Part shown: in pieces, positions 65-16,553 of the stretch
How positions within the stretch are numbered: the stretch's first letter is position 1
How the letters are laid out: each line of letters opens with the position of its first letter
Origin: Anaeroplasmataceae bacterium
GTDB lineage: Bacteria > Bacillota_I > Bacilli_A > Acholeplasmatales > Anaeroplasmataceae
Direction: 5' to 3'
Assembly (NCBI GenBank): GCA_029057785.1
Contig: JAIDZC010000001.1
Coordinates: forward strand, 1-37,873
Length of the DNA: 37,873 nucleotides
Notes under the pieces: model-generated
The model's database searches: none
Told to the model about the DNA's origin: nothing
Seen by the model: only the letters and a program-made list of their open reading frames with translations
Made by a program: the position numbers and the translations under genes

Positions 65-309
65 AGTATTTACCTCCCTCACTTTTTTCACTGAAATGCA
101 TGTTTGTTCTTCAACTTTTAGACCTCAGTTATTTTATGTCAAATTCTGTTTTCAAATTTAACATTTGATACCACCCTCTTTACTTCTCTTTTCTTATTAT
201 AATTTTATCATTCTGCATAATATTTTGTCAACATATATTTTGTTAAAAGGTATTGTGTAAAAATTTATTTTATGCTATATTTAAAATTGCTAATTTAGGA
301 TGTGATATA

Positions 310-648
310 ATGACGTGGGAAAAGGATATAGAGGAAAATTTTAAGGTAGGATTATTAGACTTATTGATTCTTAAACTTCTCTCTAAAGAAGATATGTATG
401 GTTATCAGTTAAAACAAGAACTTCTATCTCAAAGTAACAACTCTATTGAAATTAAAGAAGGTTCATTATATGGACCATTTTACCGTTTAGAAAATAAAGG
501 ATTTATTACTTCTAATAAAGTATTAGTTGGAGCTAAGAGGTTTAGAGTTTATTATCATCTAACGGAAAAAGGGAAGGAATATTTGGAATGTGGTAGCCAA
601 GTATTTGATAAAATATATGCTGGAGCAAATGCAATTCTCAAGGGGTGA
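310..648 (+). CDS. PadR-family transcriptional regulator
   Basis: A 112-residue winged-helix repressor. The block GLLDLLILKLLSKEDMYGYQL followed by IKEGSLYGPFYRLENKGFI and YYHLTEKGKEYL is the PadR N-terminal helix-turn-helix and wing. PadR proteins act as dimers and usually control the gene cluster they sit in. An upstream in-frame ATG at 253 exists, but AGGATGTGAT at 297-306 stands three bases before the ATG at 310 and decides the start. The gene is followed eight bases later by a one-TM HAAS-like protein, a pairing common in Bacillota, where PadR and HAAS/DUF1700 proteins form signalling pairs. The effector is unknown. Confidence 0.9.
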   Translation: MTWEKDIEENFKVGLLDLLILKLLSKEDMYGYQLKQELLSQSNNSIEIKEGSLYGPFYRLENKGFITSNKVLVGAKRFRVYYHLTEKGKEYLECGSQVFDKIYAGANAILKG

Positions 649-655
649 ACTTAAT

Positions 656-1009
656 ATGTTAAATAAAAATGATTTGAAAAATTATTATTCTCTTATCAAA
701 AAGAACTTATCTTGTTCTTTCAATATGAAGTCTGTATTTATGAAAGACTTAAATGATAGAATTAATGAATTCTTAGTGGATAACCCAAATTCAACAATTG
801 ATACTATCATTGAGAACTTTGGTACACCTGTAGAAATTGCAAAAAGTTTCGATAAAGATAATGACCATTTAATAAAGAAAGCTAAAAATAGGTTGATCAT
901 AGAAATTGTTTTATTAGCATCATTGCTTGTTTGTATTGCAATTTTCGGCATTGTCATTTATAGCATCTTAGAAAATCTTGGAGGAAACATAACAGTAACA
1001 ACAGAGTAA
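656..1009 (+). CDS. HAAS/DUF1700-like one-TM protein next to PadR
   Basis: A 117-residue protein. The N-terminal part (about residues 1-70) has the pattern of HAAS/DUF1700 or DUF6120-type domains: a short helical start, then FLVDNPNSTIDTIIENFGTPVEIAKSF, where F/L-G-P/T-P near the end of the domain is typical. Residues about 83-105 (RLIIEIVLLASLLVCIAIFGIVIYSIL) form a single membrane helix with a short outer tail. It starts eight bases after padR with AGGGG/GGTG before ATG 656, so the two are probably co-transcribed. I infer that it works with the PadR protein to sense or export something at the membrane; the exact role is not known. Confidence 0.7.
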   Translation: MLNKNDLKNYYSLIKKNLSCSFNMKSVFMKDLNDRINEFLVDNPNSTIDTIIENFGTPVEIAKSFDKDNDHLIKKAKNRLIIEIVLLASLLVCIAIFGIVIYSILENLGGNITVTTE

Positions 1010-1026
1010 AAAAGGGGGAAATAAAA

Positions 1027-1527
1027 ATGAAGAAAATTATATGTGTTGTATGTTTACTATTTGTACTTTTGATTTCAACAAATCAAAAAGTTTCTGCAAG
1101 TGAAAATAGTCTTTTAAATGATTTTAAATTAATCACAAAGGAAACAGAACATTTTGAAGATGGTAGTTACATTATTTATGAAACTTATGAACAAATAAAT
1201 GATGTAGTTCTTCTTTCTACTTCTTATAGTAAGACTGGAAAAAGAACCGTAACAAAAACTGGAAGTGATGGGAAAGTGTTATGGACTTACATTCTTTCAG
1301 CTGAATACTGGATTGAGGAAGGTATTTCTGTATCATGCACTAAAGCAGATTATTCTACTACTATCAATAATTCTTCTTGGAGTTTTAATGATGGATCTGC
1401 TAGTTATAGTGGAAACACAGCTTATGGAAAAGGAAAATTCACATATAAGGTCTTATGGATTTTTCCTACTCAAGATGTTAATATAGATATAAAACTTTCT
1501 TGCGATAGCTATGGTAATCTATCTTAA
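1027..1527 (+). CDS. Small secreted protein of unknown function
   Basis: A 166-residue protein with a clear Sec signal peptide (MKKIICVVCLLFVLLIS, likely cleavage after KVSA-S). The mature part is rich in Ser, Thr, Tyr and Gly and looks like a beta-sheet domain (EDGSYIIYETYEQINDVVLLSTSYSKTG and later repeating short strands). No enzyme motif is visible. It follows the HAAS-like gene by 17 bases with AAGGGGGA as ribosome site, so it completes a PadR-HAAS-secreted operon. It resembles small secreted DUF6147-type proteins found in similar settings, but this is from memory and is weak. It could be a bacteriocin-like or surface protein. Confidence 0.6.
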   Translation: MKKIICVVCLLFVLLISTNQKVSASENSLLNDFKLITKETEHFEDGSYIIYETYEQINDVVLLSTSYSKTGKRTVTKTGSDGKVLWTYILSAEYWIEEGISVSCTKADYSTTINNSSWSFNDGSASYSGNTAYGKGKFTYKVLWIFPTQDVNIDIKLSCDSYGNLS

Positions 1528-1570
1528 TTAGTATCAAACCACATTTGATTTTAAAAATTGAAAAAAGCAA

Positions 1571-3848: not shown

Positions 3849-4976
3849 TTAATCCTTCCAATCATTCAGATGAATCATACCATAAATAAAATAATATATT
3901 TTAAACAAATATATTTTAGCTCCAAATTTTTCATTGCATTCAGGATTCTTACAAACTAAAAAAGGGTCACCATTTGCATTTCTATATCGTATTTGAACGA
4001 GAGATTTACATTTCGGACATGGTATTTCATTTGCTTCTAAATATGACTGATAAGTTTGAGCCAAAGAAAGAACTGTCACTTTTTCTGCTCCATTAGCATA
4101 CAAAACTTTAACAACTTCATTTAGAGATGTTCCAGTTGTTATAACATCATCTACAAAAAGTATCTTTTTTCCTCTTACATCAATACCTTCGACAACACTT
4201 ATAGAGCCTTCCATTTCTTTTTCACGTTCTACCTGATTCTTTTGTTTTAATGAATCAACTTCTCTATTTAATTTTAATATATTGTTTGGTATTGCTTTCT
4301 TAAATCTATCAAATTGATCCTTCTTTGCTGGAATATAACAAAAATAATCATATGTAGTAGAGGATCTTTCCAAAAAATACTCAAGTGAATTTTTAATAAA
4401 ATTTGATAAAACATCCAATTGGTGCTGCGTTTTACTATACTTCATTTCTATCTTACTTGATAAAAAGTCCATATTATCAGCACGCTTATGACGTCCATAA
4501 AATCTCCCTAAAGAATAAACTGAAATAACATCTTCAGTTTCTTCATCAAATTCATCTCCTAATGAAATTCGAGAATATATAGCAGTAGTATTTTTCTTAG
4601 ATAATGTAAAATCGTTAGTAAAAGCATACTTTTCAGAAAAAAGAGTATAAATATTACCTTGAATGAAATCATCTACTGTCTTAGCTTTTGCATCAACAGA
4701 ACCTTCATTGTTCTTTTGCCACCACTTTAGGTTATGATCTATTTGTATCAATGTCGGATACCATTGCTTTCCATCACTATCTACAATAAAATAATTTCTA
4801 CTTGATCTTGAAACATAAATAGTATCAAATCGAGTCCCCTGTACATTTTCAAAACCAAAAGTAAAAAAATCATCTATTTTAGAATCTATGAAATCACAAT
4901 TTTTAAAAGAAGACTTGATTTTATTATTTTCCTCTTCTGTGATAGTATTTTCATCAATAATTATTTGTATTTTCAT
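3849..4976 (-). CDS. Phosphoribosyltransferase-domain protein, ShosT-like
   Basis: A 375-residue protein. Residues 270-300 carry the type I PRTase PRPP-binding loop, VDDVITTGTS (275-284), after a hydrophobic beta strand. Next comes a four-cysteine zinc ribbon: C320-x2-C323 and C342-x4-C347. The N-terminal 250 residues are not recognisable and contain a basic coiled stretch at about 230-257. It begins three bases after the DprA-like gene. A PRTase gene paired with a DprA-like gene is the layout of the ShosTA toxin-antitoxin defence module, in which the PRTase protein is the toxin. I infer the same role here. A competence ComF-like origin is possible for the zinc/PRTase combination, though the size and order differ. 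Confidence 0.75.
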   Translation of the reverse strand: MKIQIIIDENTITEEENNKIKSSFKNCDFIDSKIDDFFTFGFENVQGTRFDTIYVSRSSRNYFIVDSDGKQWYPTLIQIDHNLKWWQKNNEGSVDAKAKTVDDFIQGNIYTLFSEKYAFTNDFTLSKKNTTAIYSRISLGDEFDEETEDVISVYSLGRFYGRHKRADNMDFLSSKIEMKYSKTQHQLDVLSNFIKNSLEYFLERSSTTYDYFCYIPAKKDQFDRFKKAIPNNILKLNREVDSLKQKNQVEREKEMEGSISVVEGIDVRGKKILFVDDVITTGTSLNEVVKVLYANGAEKVTVLSLAQTYQSYLEANEIPCPKCKSLVQIRYRNANGDPFLVCKNPECNEKFGAKIYLFKIYYFIYGMIHLNDWKD

Positions 4977-4979
4977 ATT

Positions 4980-5867
4980 CTATTCCACTCCCAATTTTTC
5001 CTTTAATAATCTTTTTAAGTCGTCAAAATGATTAAACTTATAAACATTTGTATATTCTTTTTTGAAATTATGTGGCCAACTATTATAAGGGTCATCAAAC
5101 ACTGATGCAGGAACAAACAGTGATTTTCCATTTTTAAGTGTGCTTCTTGCTTGGCTTACAGTTCCACTTGTGTCACCAGCTTGCATTACTATTGTTGAAT
5201 CTGAAATTGAACTCATTATATAATTACGCCTTAAAAAGTTCCATTTTAAAGTGGGTTCAAAATCTGCAAATTCTGTAATCAATAAACCATTTTTTTCAAT
5301 ATATTCTTGTATAACACGGTTTTCTTTCGGATAATACTTTTTTAAAGGTGTACCAATTACTGCTATAATATTTTTATAACCTGCATTAAAACAAAAGTTA
5401 TGTGTAGTCACATCTATACCTTTAGCAAGACCTGACACAATACATATATTTTTTGAAATTAAAAACTTAGTAATTCTAATGGTATCGGTTACTGCTCTTT
5501 CAGATGGATTTCTAGTACCAACTATGCTTAATGATACATTCTTTAGCAAATCAAGATTTCCTTCATAAAATAAAACGATAGGATGCTCTGTAGTATTTTT
5601 AACCTTATTTGGAAATATGTCATCTTCAATGAATATTATTTGATTCTCATACTTTTCAAAACAAGCTTCTGCTTTGCTCTTAATTTCATGAGTCAAATTT
5701 TTATATATATCTTTATCTTTATTATCTAAATCAAAAATACAATCTTCAATTCTTTTATTTAATACTTGAATATATCGCATAAAGAAAGAACGTGCTACTT
5801 CTCTTTTATATTGAAAGATTTGTAAAATAATGAAATAATTAATTATTTTATTTTTTCTATCATTCAT
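4980..5867 (-). CDS. DprA/Smf-like Rossmann protein, ShosA-like
   Basis: A 295-residue protein with the DprA core: VLFYEGNLDLL, SIVGTRNPSERA, IVSGLAKGID, IGTPLKKYYPKEN, and FLRRNYIMSS plus GDTSGTVSQARSTLKNGK. In DprA these surround the nucleotide/ssDNA-binding Rossmann pocket. There is no C-terminal winged helix of standard DprA; the N-terminal 95 residues are helical. ATG 5867 is used rather than ATG 5885, because AAAGGATGTG lies between them at proper spacing. It is the first gene of an operon with a PRTase gene, matching ShosTA, where the DprA-like partner neutralises the PRTase toxin. It is unlikely to be the housekeeping dprA, given its partner and location. Confidence 0.8.
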   Translation of the reverse strand: MNDRKNKIINYFIILQIFQYKREVARSFFMRYIQVLNKRIEDCIFDLDNKDKDIYKNLTHEIKSKAEACFEKYENQIIFIEDDIFPNKVKNTTEHPIVLFYEGNLDLLKNVSLSIVGTRNPSERAVTDTIRITKFLISKNICIVSGLAKGIDVTTHNFCFNAGYKNIIAVIGTPLKKYYPKENRVIQEYIEKNGLLITEFADFEPTLKWNFLRRNYIMSSISDSTIVMQAGDTSGTVSQARSTLKNGKSLFVPASVFDDPYNSWPHNFKKEYTNVYKFNHFDDLKRLLKEKLGVE

Positions 5868-5892
5868 AAAAACACATCCTTTCATTTTTTTT

Positions 5893-7282: not shown

Positions 7283-7948
7283 TTAATTTGATTTTTTTTG
7301 CAAAACTTCATTGACTGCCTCAACTAATAAAGAAAATGAATGAGGTCTATCATCTTTGCGAAGACTTTGGACCGCTTCTTTCTTTGATTTATAAATCTTC
7401 CTTAAAAGATTCCATTTCTTTGAAGAATTAATTTTTTTATATTTATTATTAAAATTTTTACTATTTGACAAGGGGATATAATGATAATCTTCCTCACCTT
7501 TGCCTTTTTTTTCATTTTTTAAAATAGTATATTCATTATTTGAATTATATCTTAATATGGCAATATCATATGAATAAATGATTTGTCCATTAAAATCTAA
7601 TTTTTTTGTTGTTAAAACATGAGTAGAGTCTTCACAATTTGATAAATCTAATCCAAGTTCTTCAAATGCTTTATCAAAATATTCTTTAAATTTCAATTTT
7701 GTTTCTTGGGCTTTTTTCCTGTATTCAGAAGGCATTTTATTAAATCTTAACTGATAGTCTAAATCAAATCCTTCATTTCCAACTAAAATCAAGTTTCTTT
7801 TAGCACTTCCAACTAAAAAAACATCAAATATCCATTGGTTTTTTCCAAAGTCTCTCCTTATATACTCTCGTACTTTCTTTAAAATTTTATTTTCAAATAT
7901 ATCTCTAGCTTCACGCTTTGTTGGATCTTTTTTTGCTATATATTTCAT
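7283..7948 (-). CDS. Nucleotidyltransferase (pol-beta/MNT-CD-NTase fold)
   Basis: A 221-residue protein with the pol-beta-type active site: FLVGSAKRN (Gly47-Ser48), FDLDYQL (Asp62 and Asp64) and YSYDIAIL (third Asp, 128). All three metal-binding acids are present, so it should be active. It is longer than minimal MNT antitoxins and shorter than most CD-NTases of CBASS. Its ATG overlaps the stop of the upstream HEPN-like gene by one base, and the RES gene follows after 18 bases, so translation is coupled. It may add nucleotides to the HEPN or RES protein, as MntA does to HepT, or make a nucleotide signal. The choice cannot be made from sequence. Confidence 0.8.
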   Translation of the reverse strand: MKYIAKKDPTKREARDIFENKILKKVREYIRRDFGKNQWIFDVFLVGSAKRNLILVGNEGFDLDYQLRFNKMPSEYRKKAQETKLKFKEYFDKAFEELGLDLSNCEDSTHVLTTKKLDFNGQIIYSYDIAILRYNSNNEYTILKNEKKGKGEEDYHYIPLSNSKNFNNKYKKINSSKKWNLLRKIYKSKKEAVQSLRKDDRPHSFSLLVEAVNEVLQKKSN

Positions 7949-8721
7949 TATCTATTAAATCTCCCATCTTTAAATTTATGTAAACATATAAGATTTTCAT
8001 AAGGTGGCTGATTAATGTCACCATCTTTAAAATTGCTTTTGTTTATATCTTGTGTTAACCCACCAACTAATTTACCATTTTGAATAGAGCCTTCTTTAAA
8101 TACCTCAGTTGGCATTAGTCTATACAAAGCCTCAACTCCATCCTCTATTTCTTTTATTTCTCTCTCAATTTTACTTTTATCTGTATGATAAGATAGTAAT
8201 AACATATTATGATGCATTACTTTATTTCTTAATTTTTTTCGCACCATAACTATATCATTTTGATCAATACTATATTTTATTGCTAAGTCATATTTTTCAA
8301 ATATCTTTTCTATTGTTCCAAAATCAAAGAATCTTGAATAAGAGTACTCATATAAATTTGAATTAAGATTGCTTTTATCTTTGTTTTGTAAGGCATCAAT
8401 ATCAAGTTTTTTATTTTCATTGTCTTCAAATTTTTCTAATGTTTCTAGTTCTTCAAAAATTATATTACGCAAGTGCTCTTCTGCTACACATAAGTATTTG
8501 TAAAGCTTGTCTCTTATACTTTTATCATATCGTATAAGATTTTTAAAATGCTCATATTTGATAGAACAATTTGTTTGCCAATTGCACAGGGCATCATAGA
8601 CTTGCTTATATAAAAAAATGCCCTTAGATTTTAAATTTTGTAAAAAAAGTTTCTCTTCTTCTTGGTTTTCAAAAACTAATAATGGAAAACATTCAGAGAT
8701 ATTTATTTCATTAAAATACAT
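7948..8721 (-). CDS. Abi_2 (AbiD/AbiF)-like HEPN protein
   Basis: A 257-residue protein resembling Abi_2 abortive-infection proteins. YDKSIRDKLYKYLCVAEEHLRN (about 65-86) matches the family's helix of the type YD-LR-l-iE-lR. KLRNKVMHHN carries the HEPN Rx4-6H motif, here Arg165-x4-His170. HEPN proteins of this type are usually RNases that act under phage infection. The C-terminal 50 residues contain a repetitive stretch (GSIQNGKLVGGL, GDINQPPY) and look flexible. The start at ATG 8721 is preceded by GGGAGGT; ATG 8739 has no such site. It opens the HEPN-NTase-RES operon. Confidence 0.7.
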   Translation of the reverse strand: MYFNEINISECFPLLVFENQEEEKLFLQNLKSKGIFLYKQVYDALCNWQTNCSIKYEHFKNLIRYDKSIRDKLYKYLCVAEEHLRNIIFEELETLEKFEDNENKKLDIDALQNKDKSNLNSNLYEYSYSRFFDFGTIEKIFEKYDLAIKYSIDQNDIVMVRKKLRNKVMHHNMLLLSYHTDKSKIEREIKEIEDGVEALYRLMPTEVFKEGSIQNGKLVGGLTQDINKSNFKDGDINQPPYENLICLHKFKDGRFNR

Positions 8722-8751
8722 TATTATACCTCCCAACATGATGTTTTCTAT

Positions 8752-9836: not shown

Positions 9837-12123
9837 TAACCCAAGGAACAAGTTCTGTTGATTTAACGTATAAATCACATCGATCTGTTTTAATCTGACT
9901 TGCATCAAGCATTTCTTCATCACAACCTAATTCAATGCATAATGCATTGTATTTTAATTTTTCATATCTTAGCATAATTTCTTTTGATTCTTTCAAGTAA
10001 TATTTTGCTTCTTCAATATCGTTTGTAATTTTTGCACTAACCACTAAAGACAAATAGATATATCTTTTGGCACGCACATCATAATTTACATTTTTTATGT
10101 TTGAATATATATTTTTTCTGCATTCTCTTAAGAATTGCAATTTGATTAAATTAGCATTATTCATAATATAATAAGAATTAGCAATTAGCCATCCTGTTTT
10201 GGCTATATTTCTTGCATAATATGATCTAGCATACATATTTGCTAAAGAATATGTTTGAATAGCTTTTTCGAGATAACTATTTGTACGCGTTTTAATATAT
10301 AAATACATATAAAAGGTTCCTTTATTTACTAAAGGGTAAGCGGCTTCATGAAATAAATTTTTATTTTTAAAATAATCAAATACTTGATCAAACTCTTCAA
10401 CATAGTTTAAATCCACCACATTATCATACAGAGCTAATTTCATCATAGTTATGTTATGCTGTATTTTATAATATTCTTCTGATTTATTCTTACATAATGA
10501 CAATGCCTTTGATGTTAATTTTATTGATTCTGAGAAAGGCATTATATTATTTGAATACCTATATAATCTATATATTTCCTCCGAATCTTTGTATTTTTTT
10601 AAAGTTTCTTTAAACAACTTTTCAGCGTGGTTTATACTGATAGTATCTTTTTTAATAGAAAGAGCCATTATTAATTTAGATACAACTTCTAATTCCTCGA
10701 TAGCATTAGAAGAAATATTAAGAGCTAACTTATAAGTATCACTACAAGATGGTAAAGATAGCAAAAATTCTATATCTCCTATTAATATAAGGTTTTTATA
10801 TTGATTTTTATCGATTAGACTTGCATATTTATAAGCAGATTCATAATATCCATTTATAAATAGCAACTCTGCATAGCTATGAATACTTTTTGGCAAAAAA
10901 GAATTCTCTATTATAAAGTATTGTGAAAAATAGTCAATCAAAAATATTTTTTCTTCAATGTTTTTGGTTGAATTAATTAAATTCAATAGAACCCCCTTTA
11001 ATTCAAACTCATTAGGGTTCTTTATTTTTTTTAATAATTTGGATGTTATCGTAAATCTATTCGTATCCAATAAAAAAAACTGTATTAAAAGGTTAATTAC
11101 TATTTTTTCTTCATCACTTGTAAGTTTAAGTAAATTATAATAAAAATATGATAAAGAATATACTGGTCTACCCATCATCATTCCACTTATATAACAATAT
11201 TTATCAAAAACTTCATCTGGCAAAGATAATCCTAAAATCTCAGCAATTTCGTCTTTTGTAAAATTCTCTTCACTAATTACAAAAATGGCAAAAAATAATT
11301 TAATTGTTTTATTTAAATTCGTTTCTTCATTAAATTTTTCTCTTATGAAATCTATAAATTGACGTATACTATTTGGATTTATCACATTATGCTGAAACTC
11401 TTTTATCGAGTTGACTAATAATCCAGGGTTTCCTTTTAAAAGGGTATATAATATTCTTGTGGAATCAGTCTTTTCACTTTCACTTTCAAAAAGGAAAAAT
11501 TGTGATAAAAGAAGTGCATAGTCATTTATCTCTTTAAATTCTTTTATATTAACTGAAGTTATATTTTTCAATGAATCCTTCACTAACTCGCTCTTCCAAT
11601 TTAATTTTGTTTCGTCATAAGTAAAATATACTTTTCTATTATTTAATGATTGCAATTTTTTAATTTTATCTAAACTTATACTATCAATCATAAATGTATC
11701 ATCAAAGCAAAAATAAGTATACTCTTCTTTAGGGAAAATATTATTTATTGCTTGATAAAAATCAAATTCTGAAATACTCAAGCTGGATAGTTTTTCTACT
11801 ACCTCTTGGATTACATTTAAATCGTCAAAAGAATTTATATTTGAAAATGTTTGAATTAAATTTTCATTAGTATGAATTATTTTCAATAGTTCATCAATCT
11901 TTTTTTCTTCATATAACCATTTTGAAACAAATTCCACCCAATAACTTCTAGCATCTGTCAATATATCATATTGAAATATAAGACCCTTTTTATCTTTCAA
12001 ATACTCATGCATAAAAGCACTTTTTCCGATTTGAGGATCTTTTCCAACAATTACTATGAAAATATCATTTATACTTGCATCAAGAATATCTTTAGTTTCT
12101 TGTCTATCTATAAATTTTCCCAT
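9820..12123 (-). CDS. STAND/NLR-like ATPase with helical-repeat C-terminus
   Basis: A 767-residue protein. It starts like many STAND ATPases (MGKFIDRQETKDIL, then a hydrophobic strand). The P-loop IVGKDPQIGKSAF (Gly27, Gly33-Lys34-Ser35) has one more residue than the usual GxxxxGK. YFCFDDT (Asp141, Asp142) is Walker B, and LLKGNPGLL (231-236) is the GNP signature of STAND proteins. From about residue 340 the protein is a long run of helix pairs like TPRs, fit for recognising a target. No N-terminal effector domain is fused; the small membrane protein encoded just upstream may supply that role. GTG 12159 lacks a ribosome site, so ATG 12123 is preferred. This gives a 20-base overlap with the upstream gene. 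Confidence 0.75.
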   Translation of the reverse strand: MGKFIDRQETKDILDASINDIFIVIVGKDPQIGKSAFMHEYLKDKKGLIFQYDILTDARSYWVEFVSKWLYEEKKIDELLKIIHTNENLIQTFSNINSFDDLNVIQEVVEKLSSLSISEFDFYQAINNIFPKEEYTYFCFDDTFMIDSISLDKIKKLQSLNNRKVYFTYDETKLNWKSELVKDSLKNITSVNIKEFKEINDYALLLSQFFLFESESEKTDSTRILYTLLKGNPGLLVNSIKEFQHNVINPNSIRQFIDFIREKFNEETNLNKTIKLFFAIFVISEENFTKDEIAEILGLSLPDEVFDKYCYISGMMMGRPVYSLSYFYYNLLKLTSDEEKIVINLLIQFFLLDTNRFTITSKLLKKIKNPNEFELKGVLLNLINSTKNIEEKIFLIDYFSQYFIIENSFLPKSIHSYAELLFINGYYESAYKYASLIDKNQYKNLILIGDIEFLLSLPSCSDTYKLALNISSNAIEELEVVSKLIMALSIKKDTISINHAEKLFKETLKKYKDSEEIYRLYRYSNNIMPFSESIKLTSKALSLCKNKSEEYYKIQHNITMMKLALYDNVVDLNYVEEFDQVFDYFKNKNLFHEAAYPLVNKGTFYMYLYIKTRTNSYLEKAIQTYSLANMYARSYYARNIAKTGWLIANSYYIMNNANLIKLQFLRECRKNIYSNIKNVNYDVRAKRYIYLSLVVSAKITNDIEEAKYYLKESKEIMLRYEKLKYNALCIELGCDEEMLDASQIKTDRCDLYVKSTELVPWVISFGH

Positions 12124-12592: not shown

Positions 12593-13501
12593 ATGAATTT
12601 AATAAAGTATAGGGAGATATTTATAGCAAAAATGATGGTATCTAAAAACTTGGATATGAAAAGTATCAAAGCCTATACATCAGATTTAAACCACTTGATT
12701 GACTACACAAATGGGAAAATATCTCAAGAATCTATTATGAGTTATATACAATACCTAACTCAAAAATATAAGGATACTACTGTTTCAAGAAAACTAATCA
12801 CAATCAAGATGTTCTTTAGATTTATTGAGGAAGAAACGAAATGGATAAATCCATTAGATAAATATAAAATTAAAATTAAAAAAGAAAAAAGATTACCTAA
12901 AACAATACCTGTAAAAGATGTTAGTAAGTTGTTAGATTATATGTATGAGAATCTTAATAAAGCTACTACTTCTTTTGCATACTTTCAAGCTGTTAGAGAT
13001 TTATGCATTATAGATCTTCTTTTATCTACTGGAATGAGAATAGCTGAAGTATCTAATTTAAAGTTAGAAGATATTATTACTTCTGAACGTGTATTACTTG
13101 TTCATGGTAAAGGAAAGAAACAAAGACTTTTATATATTTCCAGTTTAGAAACTTGGAATAATTTAAAGTCTTGGATAAATATAAGAAAAAAGCTTAAAGT
13201 AAATCACGACTATTTATTTGTAAATAAATATCATAATACTTTAAGTATTTACGGAATTGAAAATATATTTACTAAATACCGAGATAAAAGTGGTATATCT
13301 CCGTCTGCTACACCACATTATTTAAGGCATACGTTTGCTACGAACTTGTTAGCTAATGGGGCTGATTTAAGAAGTGTTCAGGAACTACTAGGACATTCTT
13401 CTATTTCTACTACAGAAATTTATACTGAAGTTAATACTGTCAGAAAGAAAATTGTTTTAAAGAAATATAACTTAAGAAATAAACTTACGAAAAATTCATA
13501 A
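12593..13501 (+). CDS. Tyrosine recombinase (Xer/phage-integrase family)
   Basis: A 302-residue site-specific recombinase with both normal domains. Residues 1-90 are the SAM-like core-binding domain (SIKAYTSDLNHLIDYT, TVSRKLITIKMFFRF). Residues 100-295 are the catalytic domain with the full set: Arg149 (STGMRIAE), Lys173 (GKGKKQR), His242 and Arg245 (PHYLRHTFAT), His268 (LLGHSSIS) and the nucleophile Tyr277 (TEIYTEV). GGAGG precedes ATG 12593. It lies directly beside one copy of the 32-bp inverted repeat, which has a dyad of suitable size, so I infer it inverts the 8814-12532 segment. It is too isolated to be a clear prophage integrase; a role in moving the island is the main alternative. Confidence 0.9.
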   Translation: MNLIKYREIFIAKMMVSKNLDMKSIKAYTSDLNHLIDYTNGKISQESIMSYIQYLTQKYKDTTVSRKLITIKMFFRFIEEETKWINPLDKYKIKIKKEKRLPKTIPVKDVSKLLDYMYENLNKATTSFAYFQAVRDLCIIDLLLSTGMRIAEVSNLKLEDIITSERVLLVHGKGKKQRLLYISSLETWNNLKSWINIRKKLKVNHDYLFVNKYHNTLSIYGIENIFTKYRDKSGISPSATPHYLRHTFATNLLANGADLRSVQELLGHSSISTTEIYTEVNTVRKKIVLKKYNLRNKLTKNS

Positions 13502-13541
13502 TCAAACAAATTGATAAAAGTTTTCTTCATTTATTTTTCGA

Positions 13542-13970
13542 CTATTCAGTTTTAGCTTCATCAAATATAGTTGGTCTTTTAAAATAGAAGTTTCCCTGTA
13601 ATTCATCTATTAAATTATCAATAACATCAGTTGCCTCAAATATTAAAAATTGTATGTCATTTAATATGTTTTCTATTTCTTTAAAATCCTTATGAAAGTC
13701 TTTTAAAAAGAATTCGTGATTGATGTAATTTCTTTTATTAATAACACCTTCTAAATCTCTATATTGTTTTTCATTTAGATGATTTTCTTTCTTTAATGCA
13801 TTATTTAAAGTATTCAGTGAAGCTACATCAATTTTTTTGATTGGGATTTGAAGTATAGTAGCAAGTTTCTTATACTCTTGTTCCCATTCCTGTGAATACA
13901 TTATAATCTTTCCAACTGCTTTAAAAACATCATTTGGATAATCATTTATCTTAATATCTTTTCCAAGCAT
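13542..13970 (-). CDS. Small HEPN-like protein with DUF2971 partner
   Basis: A 142-residue, mostly helical protein. The segment KRNYINHEFF carries Arg80-x4-His85, the RNase motif of HEPN domains, between long helices (residues 14-40 and 95-120). Length and layout suit a minimal HEPN unit. It lies 34 bases downstream of a DUF2971 gene on the same strand, so the two may be one toxin-antitoxin or defence module. The start at ATG 13970 lacks a strong ribosome site, with only AAAGGAA some bases upstream. The HEPN call rests on the motif and predicted helices alone. Confidence 0.6.
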   Translation of the reverse strand: MLGKDIKINDYPNDVFKAVGKIIMYSQEWEQEYKKLATILQIPIKKIDVASLNTLNNALKKENHLNEKQYRDLEGVINKRNYINHEFFLKDFHKDFKEIENILNDIQFLIFEATDVIDNLIDELQGNFYFKRPTIFDEAKTE

Positions 13971-14004
13971 TTCGTCTATATTCCTTTCAATTATTAGTTC
14001 TAAC

Positions 14005-14967
14005 TTAATTTCTTTCTATTAACTTAATATCCATTCTCTTACAATATTCCATCATCTTAATCTTATTTTCTTTAGACACATTTTTACCTAAATAGATTGC
14101 TATTATTTTTGGTGCGATTGGTTTTTCTCCTGCATCTCCAATCAATCTCCATTCTCGTTGATATTTCCATTGCGTGTTTTTGGTTAGAAACAATCTTAAA
14201 TATTGTGTTATATCTGCTTTTATCTGCCCGTTACTCAAACTACTTATCCATTGTCCTATAAGATTTGAAACCAATTGAATTATAATATTTGTCTCTCGTA
14301 TATCTTCATATACTACAGGGAAAATGCTTTGATTGAAAGGATAATCAGATACATCATACGCGATACAACAACCTGTTTCATCTTCAGCATAATAATTATT
14401 CCACATTTCATCAATGTCTTTAGATTCGCTTAAAGAACATATTCCTACCCTTTCTTTAGAATATACTCCATAGGAAAGAAGTTTCTCAAGCTGAGGCTTA
14501 ATTGAAGGTTCATTTAACATATCAGGTATTGCAATAATGTAATTAACAAAAGGTGCTATATCTACGCTTGGAACTAGTTTTTGAAGTTCAGGGGCTATTT
14601 CCATCATATAATTTGGTCGTATTGTTCCATCAGGTTTTGTTATTCTTTTAACCATTGTTTCTAGTTTTTCATAGTTTTCAGGGGAAGTATAAGGTTTTAT
14701 CATCATTTGAATAATTTGATCAACACACTCTCTTTTCAAATTATTAGTTTCTAAATCCATTAGTCTATAAAAATCTAATGATGTGTTGCATTCAGATTCA
14801 TCATCTAAATCCTTAGCAGGACAAAGATATAGATAATTCTTTTCTAGCATATCAAAAGTATATTCATTAAAAGGTTTATACTTATATAAAATAGCAGGTC
14901 CAGAATATTTAATTTCTTCTTTTGTATTGATAACTAAATTCAAATAATCAATTTTGTTAATTTCCAT
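14005..14967 (-). CDS. DUF2971 family protein
   Basis: A 320-residue protein with the DUF2971 landmarks: LYKYKPFNEYTFDMLEKNYLY near the start, LCPAKDLDDESEC, VGICSLSESKDIDEMWNNYY, GCCIAYD and the closing KYQREWRLI. The family is common in defence islands; its biochemical activity is not settled as far as I know. AAGGAG lies eight bases before ATG 14967. A promoter with TTGTAA-18-TAAAAT sits upstream, and the next gene is a small HEPN-like protein in the same operon. I infer a two-gene defence or toxin-antitoxin unit. Confidence 0.75.
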   Translation of the reverse strand: MEINKIDYLNLVINTKEEIKYSGPAILYKYKPFNEYTFDMLEKNYLYLCPAKDLDDESECNTSLDFYRLMDLETNNLKRECVDQIIQMMIKPYTSPENYEKLETMVKRITKPDGTIRPNYMMEIAPELQKLVPSVDIAPFVNYIIAIPDMLNEPSIKPQLEKLLSYGVYSKERVGICSLSESKDIDEMWNNYYAEDETGCCIAYDVSDYPFNQSIFPVVYEDIRETNIIIQLVSNLIGQWISSLSNGQIKADITQYLRLFLTKNTQWKYQREWRLIGDAGEKPIAPKIIAIYLGKNVSKENKIKMMEYCKRMDIKLIERN

Positions 14968-15010
14968 ATATTAGCTCCTTATAAATCACTTAATCTTTTT
15001 TACTAATAAA

Positions 15011-15040
15011 ATTTTACCACAAAAGATTTGGAATTTACAA
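15011..15040 (-). promoter_or_regulatory. Promoter of the DUF2971-HEPN operon
   Basis: On the minus strand, TTGTAA (15040-15035), an 18-base spacer and TAAAAT (15016-15011). It is divergent from the RNA promoter at 15044-15072, with only three bases between the two -35 boxes. Confidence 0.6.
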
Positions 15041-15043
15041 ACA

Positions 15044-15072
15044 TTTACAAAATTTTATTTTTGTTGTATAAT
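15044..15072 (+). promoter_or_regulatory. Strong promoter of a short RNA
   Basis: TTTACA (15044-15049), a 17-base spacer and a perfect TATAAT (15067-15072). No protein gene with a proper stop before the terminator follows it. Confidence 0.75.
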
Positions 15073-15078
15073 AAGAAA

Positions 15079-15222
15079 TGTCAATAAAGGGGGTGGTATC
15101 TTGAAGGCTCTAATTAAAGCTCTTATGATACTTCTTAGGCTCCAACTCGGTTTTACCATTGGATTCCCCTTTATTTCCATAAAAAAAAACACTAGAGGTA
15201 TTGTTCCTCTAGTTTTTATTTT
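15079..15222 (+). ncRNA. Predicted structured RNA of about 145 nt, unknown class
   Basis: Between a consensus promoter and a terminator (stem ACTAGAGG/CCTCTAGT at 15191-15213 followed by a T-run) lies a compact transcript. Its 5' end AATAAAGGGG (15083-15092) pairs perfectly with CCCCTTTATT (15166-15175), just before the terminator. Such end pairing occurs in type I toxin mRNAs, where it hides the ribosome site (here GGGGGTGG), and in retron and regulatory RNAs. A TTG-started frame from 15101 (MKALIKALMILLRLQLGF) is hydrophobic but has no stop before the terminator, so I do not call it a gene. It is not antisense to a known gene. The start of the transcript is estimated from the -10 box. Confidence 0.6.
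15191..15222 (+). terminator. Terminator of the short RNA
   Basis: An 8-bp perfect stem, ACTAGAGG with CCTCTAGT, and a 7-base loop, followed by TTTTTATTTTT. Confidence 0.9.
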
Positions 15223-15242
15223 TAGTGATATAAAATTAGGTT

Positions 15243-15286
15243 GTGCGGGATTGTGCGGGGAAAAATCGTGCGGGATTTTTCACGGG
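15243..15286. repeat. GC-rich GTGCGGG repeats with hairpin
   Basis: GTGCGGG occurs at 15243-15249, 15253-15259 and 15268-15274, the first two in a 10-base period, followed by CACGGG at 15281-15286. A perfect 8-bp hairpin, GAAAAATC (15260-15267) with GATTTTTC (15274-15281), has GTGCGG in the loop. The base make-up is unlike the AT-rich surroundings. The remaining stretch to 15461 holds only short GAAGTTAT direct repeats and no gene that I can support. Confidence 0.7.
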
Positions 15287-15461
15287 AAACTTATATAAAT
15301 TATTAAAACAATATAGAAGTTATGGAAGTTATATAGAACTATTTTAAAAGATATTGTTCATTTTATAAAGAATATTAAAGAAAAAATAAGATATTGAAAG
15401 TTGGTCACTTTGCTTCTAATCCATTGGGCAAATAAGATTATTCTCTTAAAACGCCCCATTT

Positions 15462-16553
15462 CTACTCATCTTTCCCTGATAAGCCTAGGCGATGCTTCTT
15501 TCTAATGTTTTTAGCTAGGAAATACATGGATGAGTCTATATCTGTCATACCTGGAACATCACGAATTAAAACCGCCTGTCTTAGACCTTCTACAAGAGAT
15601 TTGTTATCAATCATTATATCATGCTGATTAGAACCAATTGCCTCACTTACCAAATGAGTAAAGTCTGAATCCCTTGAACGTTCAAATGCATTTTCTTTAA
15701 ATTCGGAATTTTCATAAGAAATACTATAGGTATCTAAGGTATCCTTATTTCTAGCTACTATTGTAGAAATAATGGAAGAATCTAGACCACCTGATAGGAA
15801 TGTTGATAAATCTACATCTGAAACCATTTGTCTTTGAATTGCTCGATCTAATAGGATTCTAACCTTTCTCTTTGTTTCCTCATAGTTATATTTATATTCT
15901 TTTGCTTCTAATTGATAATACACATGCTCTTCTATTGGTGCACCCTTTTTAAATTTCAGATAATGTCCTGGTCTAAGCTCATAGATGCCCTTGAATACTG
16001 TTTTAGCCTGACTATGTGAAGGCCCCATCCCAAGAAGTTCACAAAGTCCTTCTTTATCTACAATTCTTTTATCTGTATACTCTAATATGGACTTTATCTC
16101 AGAAGATACGATAATATCTTCATCATAGAAGGTATAGTAAAGAGGCTTTACTCCAAACATATCTCTTACAATCCATACCTCATCCATATGGGTATATACA
16201 AACGCAAAGATTCCATTTAAATCCTTTAAGATATCTTCCTTATATTTTATCAATAGCTTTAATAGTAATAAGGTATCACTATTAAATTCTAACGGAGTAT
16301 CTAATTTTTTTACCAATTCATTTTGATTATAAATCTCCCCGTTATAAATCAAATGATCATTTAGGATACTCATCGGTTGTTTCGCATTAACTACATCTCG
16401 AATAGCTAGACGCTTATGTCCAAAGGAATGCTCCTTATTGAATAAAAACCCATAATCATCTGGACCACGATGATTTAATAAATTACATGCTTTTATAAAT
16501 TTTACTTCATCTGTATTTGTATAAAAATTACTCTTATAAAATATACCACACAA
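15462..16553 (-). pseudogene. asnB: Asparagine synthetase (AsnB type), 3'-truncated
   Basis: A 363-codon frame. Residues 1-190 form the class II glutaminase (Cys2 nucleophile, RGPDDYG, YNGEIYN, RDMFGVKPLYY). Residues 205-363 begin the ATP-pyrophosphatase synthetase domain with SGGLDSS (254-260). AsnB proteins go on for about 150-250 residues after the motif SGE-ADE-FGGY; here the frame stops right there, at LGLSGKDE. The bases beyond do not encode the missing part in any frame I read, so this is a truncation rather than one frameshift. The start is TTG 16553, with AGGAAGTGG upstream, which places Cys2 correctly. It might still supply glutaminase activity, but synthesis of asparagine should be lost. 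Confidence 0.75.

Follow-up and report, generated by a model that had tools for sequence, protein, structure and literature searches.

The window analyzed here, a stretch of 37,873 nucleotides, contains two minus-strand genes separated by 34 bases, and both open reading frames reported by the first-pass annotation were confirmed. The upstream gene (positions 14005-14967, ATG start) encodes a 320-amino-acid protein that matches DUF2971 (PF11185, 28.4 bits, above the cut-off of 22) and the PADLOC family PDC-S31 (E 9e-27), where PDC presumably stands for "phage defence candidate". The downstream gene (positions 13542-13970, ATG start) encodes a 142-amino-acid HEPN-like protein, recognized from its open reading frame, an AF2 four-helix model and its relatives. 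A sequence scan found no terminator-like site between the two genes. Comparison of the window with a sister species, i.e., one genome pair, gave a dN/dS of 0.15 for the HEPN-like gene (10 non-synonymous changes) and 0.24 for the DUF2971 gene (17 non-synonymous changes), so that both genes look to be under purifying selection.

The island and a putative divergent transcript

The gene pair lies at one end of an island of approximately 13.9 kb that carries ShosTA-like defence genes; the island in turn adjoins a shortened asnB. The ShosTA-like pair, a PRTase-like gene and a DprA-like gene on the minus strand (3849-5885; PF00156 and PF02481), is so described from its PADLOC names (ShosA, E 1e-63; ShosT, E 1e-8). 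A tyrosine recombinase gene on the plus strand (12593-13501; PF00589, E 3.5e-42) is convergent with the HEPN-like gene, and the island also holds a gene of 779 amino acids in which a P-loop-like motif was recognized by eye. The asnB-like gene at the island edge (15462-16553, minus strand) encodes 363 amino acids and does not have its 3′ part, compared with 596 amino acids in genome G044 (L124, 1918-3708). Both this gene and the stretch on the left of the island (window 132-1552) are present on one contig of that genome (G044:C26), where they are 1.07 kb apart, compared with 13.9 kb in the window; the 1.07-kb gap includes a gene of 109 amino acids and the 3′ part of the 596-amino-acid asnB. Of 11 genomes of the genus, three, counting that of the window, contain the left stretch; in the sister species (G047) a RES-like gene comes after it, and the HEPN-DUF2971 block comes next. 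This block, common to the window (13521-15422, with no strand assigned) and G047, aligns by blastn at 93.9% over 1906 columns. Taken as a whole, the island in the window looks like a defence-type hotspot.

Several weaker features were observed in these regions. An Abi_2-like gene in the window (7948-8739) scores 24.7 bits, below the Pfam cut-off of 25.6. The RES-like gene that directly follows the HEPN gene in G047 (L042, 13650-14753) likewise scores below its cut-off (PF08808, 21.1 bits against 23.2) and occupies the place taken by the recombinase gene in the window. In L042, the margin of the shared block (approximately 11563-11610) looks by eye like the 3′ portion of a tRNA gene and is a possible attachment site; ARAGORN found no whole tRNA there.

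Upstream of the DUF2971 gene, on the plus strand, our scan identified a putative divergent small transcript (15044-15222), in which a strong promoter-like TTTACA-17-TATAAT sequence leads into a short, heavily folded stretch (RNA fold z -4.6) with an open reading frame from a TTG at 15101, followed by a terminator-like hairpin; it resembles the mRNA of a type I toxin or a leader RNA. The small open reading frame is hydrophobic, and its ribosome-binding site is predicted to pair with the 3′ part; the frame comprises approximately 30 codons in G047, and in the window it reads past the hairpin. Copies of the small transcript without the DUF2971-HEPN pair occur in G042:C38 and G035:C2; for a further copy, located where G047:C31 begins, only one side is visible. 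Two Rfam matches fell far below the gathering scores and were taken as chance.

Fold and motifs of the small protein

AF2, run with five sequences, models the small protein as a bundle of four helices (pLDDT 86.7), and R80 and H85 are located within helix 3 (the alignment begins after the initial methionine of the window protein, and model numbering is therefore one less). Among the 50 structural matches listed are HepT (6m6u, 5yep), HI0074, YutE, Csm6 and MtlR chains, all of which we take to be HEPN-type; designed or unrelated helical bundles are interleaved with these and score within 1 Z of them, a range that any helical bundle may reach. The best match is 1wwp, with a Foldseek probability of 0.99 and an E value that is not significant (0.41), and with a VIA superposition of Z 8.0 and rmsd 3.3 over 107 residues; 1wwp is classed as HEPN in PMC3710099.

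The predicted RNase motif, R80-N81-Y-I-N-H85 (codons at 13716-13733, minus strand), retains its R, N and H in all 11 full-length family members, the window protein included. A second motif, E30-x3-K34 (codons at 13869-13883, minus strand), has an invariant glutamate and a lysine kept in at least 90% of 10 aligned rows. Across ten sequences, eight positions are invariant (G20, I23, Q27, E30, L73, R80, N81 and H85). Both motifs fit the HEPN signature as set out in PMC3710099, i.e., Rx4-6H with a polar residue after the arginine, here N81, and in many families an additional Ex3[KR]. Since R-x4-H arises in 6.0% of shuffled copies of the window protein (and R-x4-6-H in 17%), its occurrence in a single protein is weak evidence, and it is the conservation of R-N-x3-H in 11 of 11 members that makes the motif more than chance.

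Profile searches gave matches near to, and below, the thresholds of described families. The HepT-like family PF01934, searched at E values up to 1, matched 7 of the 11 family sequences scanned (the truncated L085 copy among these 11) with a best E of 6.7e-5, and the best relative scored 23.0 bits against a cut-off of 23.5; no family member scanned passed a curated Pfam HEPN cut-off. One relative (L084) matches the PADLOC Cas13a profile (E 2e-4). For the window protein itself, searches of Pfam, NCBIfam and PADLOC at E 1 returned nothing, and the sole match was to a PHROG without a name, at a weak E of 2e-4. No HEPN protein emerged when PDB sequences were searched with profiles of the small-protein family, and comparison with a viral structure library gave nothing convincing. 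Because the window protein has no match beyond the weak, unnamed PHROG and none of the relatives scanned passes a Pfam HEPN cut-off, this family seems to be undescribed within the well-known HEPN superfamily. Four-helix model, HEPN top match and the conservation of R-N-x3-H and E-x3-K together argue that the protein is very probably a member of that superfamily. The first-pass annotation had proposed a small, helical, HEPN-like protein carrying Arg80-x4-His85, and these points stand: the motif is present as RNYINH, and the helical fold is supported by the model.

Distribution and neighbours of the two families

Our scan of a genome collection identified four relatives of the window HEPN protein, one in the sister species (L002, the same record as G047:C8; 94% identity) and three in Clostridia (L003, L004 and L005; 61, 54 and 45% identity). 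Profile searches recovered members from 3 of the 160 genomes searched in the order (G061 being additional), 3 of 392 in the phylum (G318 additional) and 5 of 396 in a Clostridial order (G834, G643, G681 and G557 additional), which shows the family to be rare; a search of membrane-protein flanks added one further genome (G654). No relatives were found in phage records, plasmid records or viral contigs, one of these searches having used the L003 protein. In a tree of 11 members, one of eight inner branches was well supported, and the tree was set aside as too weak.

What lies upstream of the HEPN gene varies by lineage: a DUF2971 gene occupies the place in this genus, a gene for a small membrane protein does so in Clostridia, and other copies of the HEPN gene are alone or have different neighbours. 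No relative of the window DUF2971 protein was detectable in the 10-kb loci L003, L004 and L005. Immediately upstream of the HEPN gene, all three instead contain a gene for a small protein with hydrophobic segments, and the two genes overlap by 4 bases (ATGA) in L003 and are 14 and 4 bases apart in L004 and L005. The same layout occurs in L120 with a more distant HEPN protein, and in L110 a broken HEPN remnant follows the same membrane-protein gene. The Clostridial membrane protein and HEPN protein may thus be regarded as a candidate module in their own right, with four intact cases and one remnant. The small membrane protein is present in 15 of 396 genomes, and in the short flanks of the 14 genomes besides L004, the HEPN profile finds one intact gene and one remnant.

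Further HEPN loci have other surroundings. The gene in L086 is apparently alone, the one in L083 sits at the start of a contig, and a truncated copy in L085 lies behind a Fic-like gene (named by eye). In L084 (4846-5298), no base separates a HEPN-like gene from the stop codon of the preceding scpB-like gene, and an RNase III-like gene in L041 (5108-6585) is overlapped at its end by a small HEPN-like gene, both neighbours being named by eye. Since neighbours differ from locus to locus, the family appears to be mobile and to have no constant partner.

DUF2971 was located at 33 places in 27 of the 160 genomes of the order. A HEPN gene adjoins it at two of these, the window and G047:C8, which represent one shared 1.9-kb block in two sister species, and so the link may be a single event. 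At the other 31 places, the profile found no member of the HEPN family among closed open reading frames of at least 50 amino acids within approximately 3 kb on each side; seven of these 31 loci reach a contig end and have one short flank, and in L073 no DUF2971 open reading frame was found. Likewise, no Pfam HEPN family was detected at E 0.01 among 30 small neighbours of DUF2971 (up to approximately 230 amino acids, with one duplicate dropped). Of 13 distant places on plasmids, six were examined through an incomplete gene table, and no neighbour there was annotated as HEPN; at one distant plasmid place, an "abortive infection family protein" lies approximately 1.1 kb away on the opposite strand. 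The closest other DUF2971 protein found (L061, 53%) adjoins a gene that by eye resembles a type I specificity subunit. We therefore reject a recurrent DUF2971-HEPN two-gene system, and the repeated pairing whose absence the first-pass annotation had set as a refutation is largely lacking. Nor was a toxin-antitoxin pair supported, the HEPN family having no fixed partner and the pairing being limited to two sister species. Most occurrences of either family lack the other, and DUF2971 is therefore not an obligate antitoxin for the HEPN proteins.

The placing of DUF2971 in a defence context, also put forward at first pass, fared better, given the PDC-S31 match, the ShosTA-like genes in the window island and defence-type neighbours elsewhere. 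Among the families listed (25 of 94), these neighbours include GmrSD, type I restriction, AbiH and BrxL proteins; the set scanned comprised 56 proteins, 55 chosen by script and one by hand. TIR-like genes were noted by eye near the DUF2971 genes of L055 and L058, and one of the 30 small neighbours matches TIR_2 (E 0.0056). Alignment of 16 DUF2971 proteins showed E272 and R274 to be invariant (E272-W-R274, codons at 14146-14154, minus strand). The AF2 model of the DUF2971 protein is poor (pLDDT 51), and a sequence profile run against the PDB returned chance-level matches. By eye, the LYKY start and the late E-x-R recall ADP-ribosyltransferase folds, a candidate likeness; DarT and RES families sought for profile comparison were not found in 120 genomes each. 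In the literature searched, we found no published function for DUF2971, whose name turned up in a single paper, and no mention of PDC-S31 or PF11185.

Interpretation and comparison with known systems

We consider it about an even call that the small protein belongs to an unnamed family of HEPN-fold ribonucleases and that its role is to arrest growth as the effector of a mobile gene unit of anti-phage type. According to this reading, the HEPN protein would dimerize and, when released or triggered in infection, would cut RNA by means of R80 and H85, most likely serving as an abortive-infection-type RNase that arrests growth, by analogy with HepT or Tha. With less confidence, we suggest that whichever gene precedes the HEPN gene, DUF2971 in the window, is transcribed together with it and senses or restrains the HEPN protein. 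A more general form of this proposal, in which a family of small Rx4H HEPN effectors carries a swappable upstream module (a membrane protein in Clostridia, DUF2971 in this genus), each serving as sensor or restraint of the same RNase, we regard as unlikely. If it were true, DUF2971, which is common beside defence genes, would be linked to RNase-based defence and would gain a first testable role, as a regulator of a HEPN effector. If the slot is not exchangeable, the case is a caution against inferring a toxin-antitoxin pair from adjacency inside a defence hotspot.

The strong rival, which we judge possible while leaning against it, is that the two genes are unrelated cargo, chance neighbours in a defence hotspot that each work alone, with the 34-base gap functionally meaningless. 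It accounts for the same data with fewer assumptions than an exchangeable regulator. In its favour, DUF2971 occurs without this HEPN at 31 of 33 places, the HEPN gene occurs without DUF2971 in L003, L004 and L005 and seemingly by itself in L084 and L086, and the closest other DUF2971 protein found, in L061, is beside the gene that by eye resembles a type I specificity subunit. However, the two genes share a strand and a short gap free of any terminator-like site, and they have been kept as a block in two species even though the adjoining genes differ.

That the genes form a toxin-antitoxin pair specific to this genus, with the HEPN toxin neutralized by DUF2971, possibly through enzymatic modification as by MntA on HepT, is in our view improbable. 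The operon-like layout and the apparent purifying selection on both genes agree with such a pair, as does the precedent of HepT, which is silenced through modification of the tyrosine in RX4HXY (PMC7641770); yet the pairing is not recurrent, the corresponding position in the window protein is a phenylalanine (RNYINHEF), and no Pfam nucleotidyltransferase was present among the neighbours scanned. Least probable of all is a HEPN-like bundle that has no RNase activity and binds nucleotides or a protein partner, since, although HEPN domains with a lost motif exist (PMC3710099) and bundles of nucleotidyltransferase-associated and MtlR type are among the structural matches, every full-length member retains R, N and H, which also belong to the eight invariant positions.

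The reading of the small protein as a growth-arresting HEPN ribonuclease can be set beside four known systems or families. With respect to DUF2971 and PDC-S31, the upstream gene clearly belongs to the family, and the genes that neighbour DUF2971 vary across its loci. The likeness to HepT-MntA consists of a similar predicted fold, the Rx4H motif and the sub-threshold HepT-like matches of relatives, but the window protein itself has no HepT-like Pfam match; it has HxF rather than HxY (the tyrosine being present in 2 of 11 members, L084 and L041), and its immediate neighbours are DUF2971 and the tyrosine recombinase, with no adjoining MNT nucleotidyltransferase. Control of the HepT type by tyrosine modification is therefore unlikely here.

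The HEPN-TM system of phage-inducible islands, named in PMC11087260 and PMC12948488, combines HEPN with a transmembrane component and so recalls the Clostridial membrane-HEPN loci, with which we liken it by layout; it differs from the window pair, where neither the HEPN protein nor the DUF2971 protein contains a hydrophobic segment. Finally, Tha, as presented in PMC11087260, is a phage-activated HEPN RNase with anti-phage function from Staphylococcus aureus prophages that is inhibited by a separate protein, Ith. At 301 amino acids with an N-terminal region, Tha is considerably longer than the 142-amino-acid window protein, and the two have R-N-x3-H in common, which in Tha reads RNSIMH.
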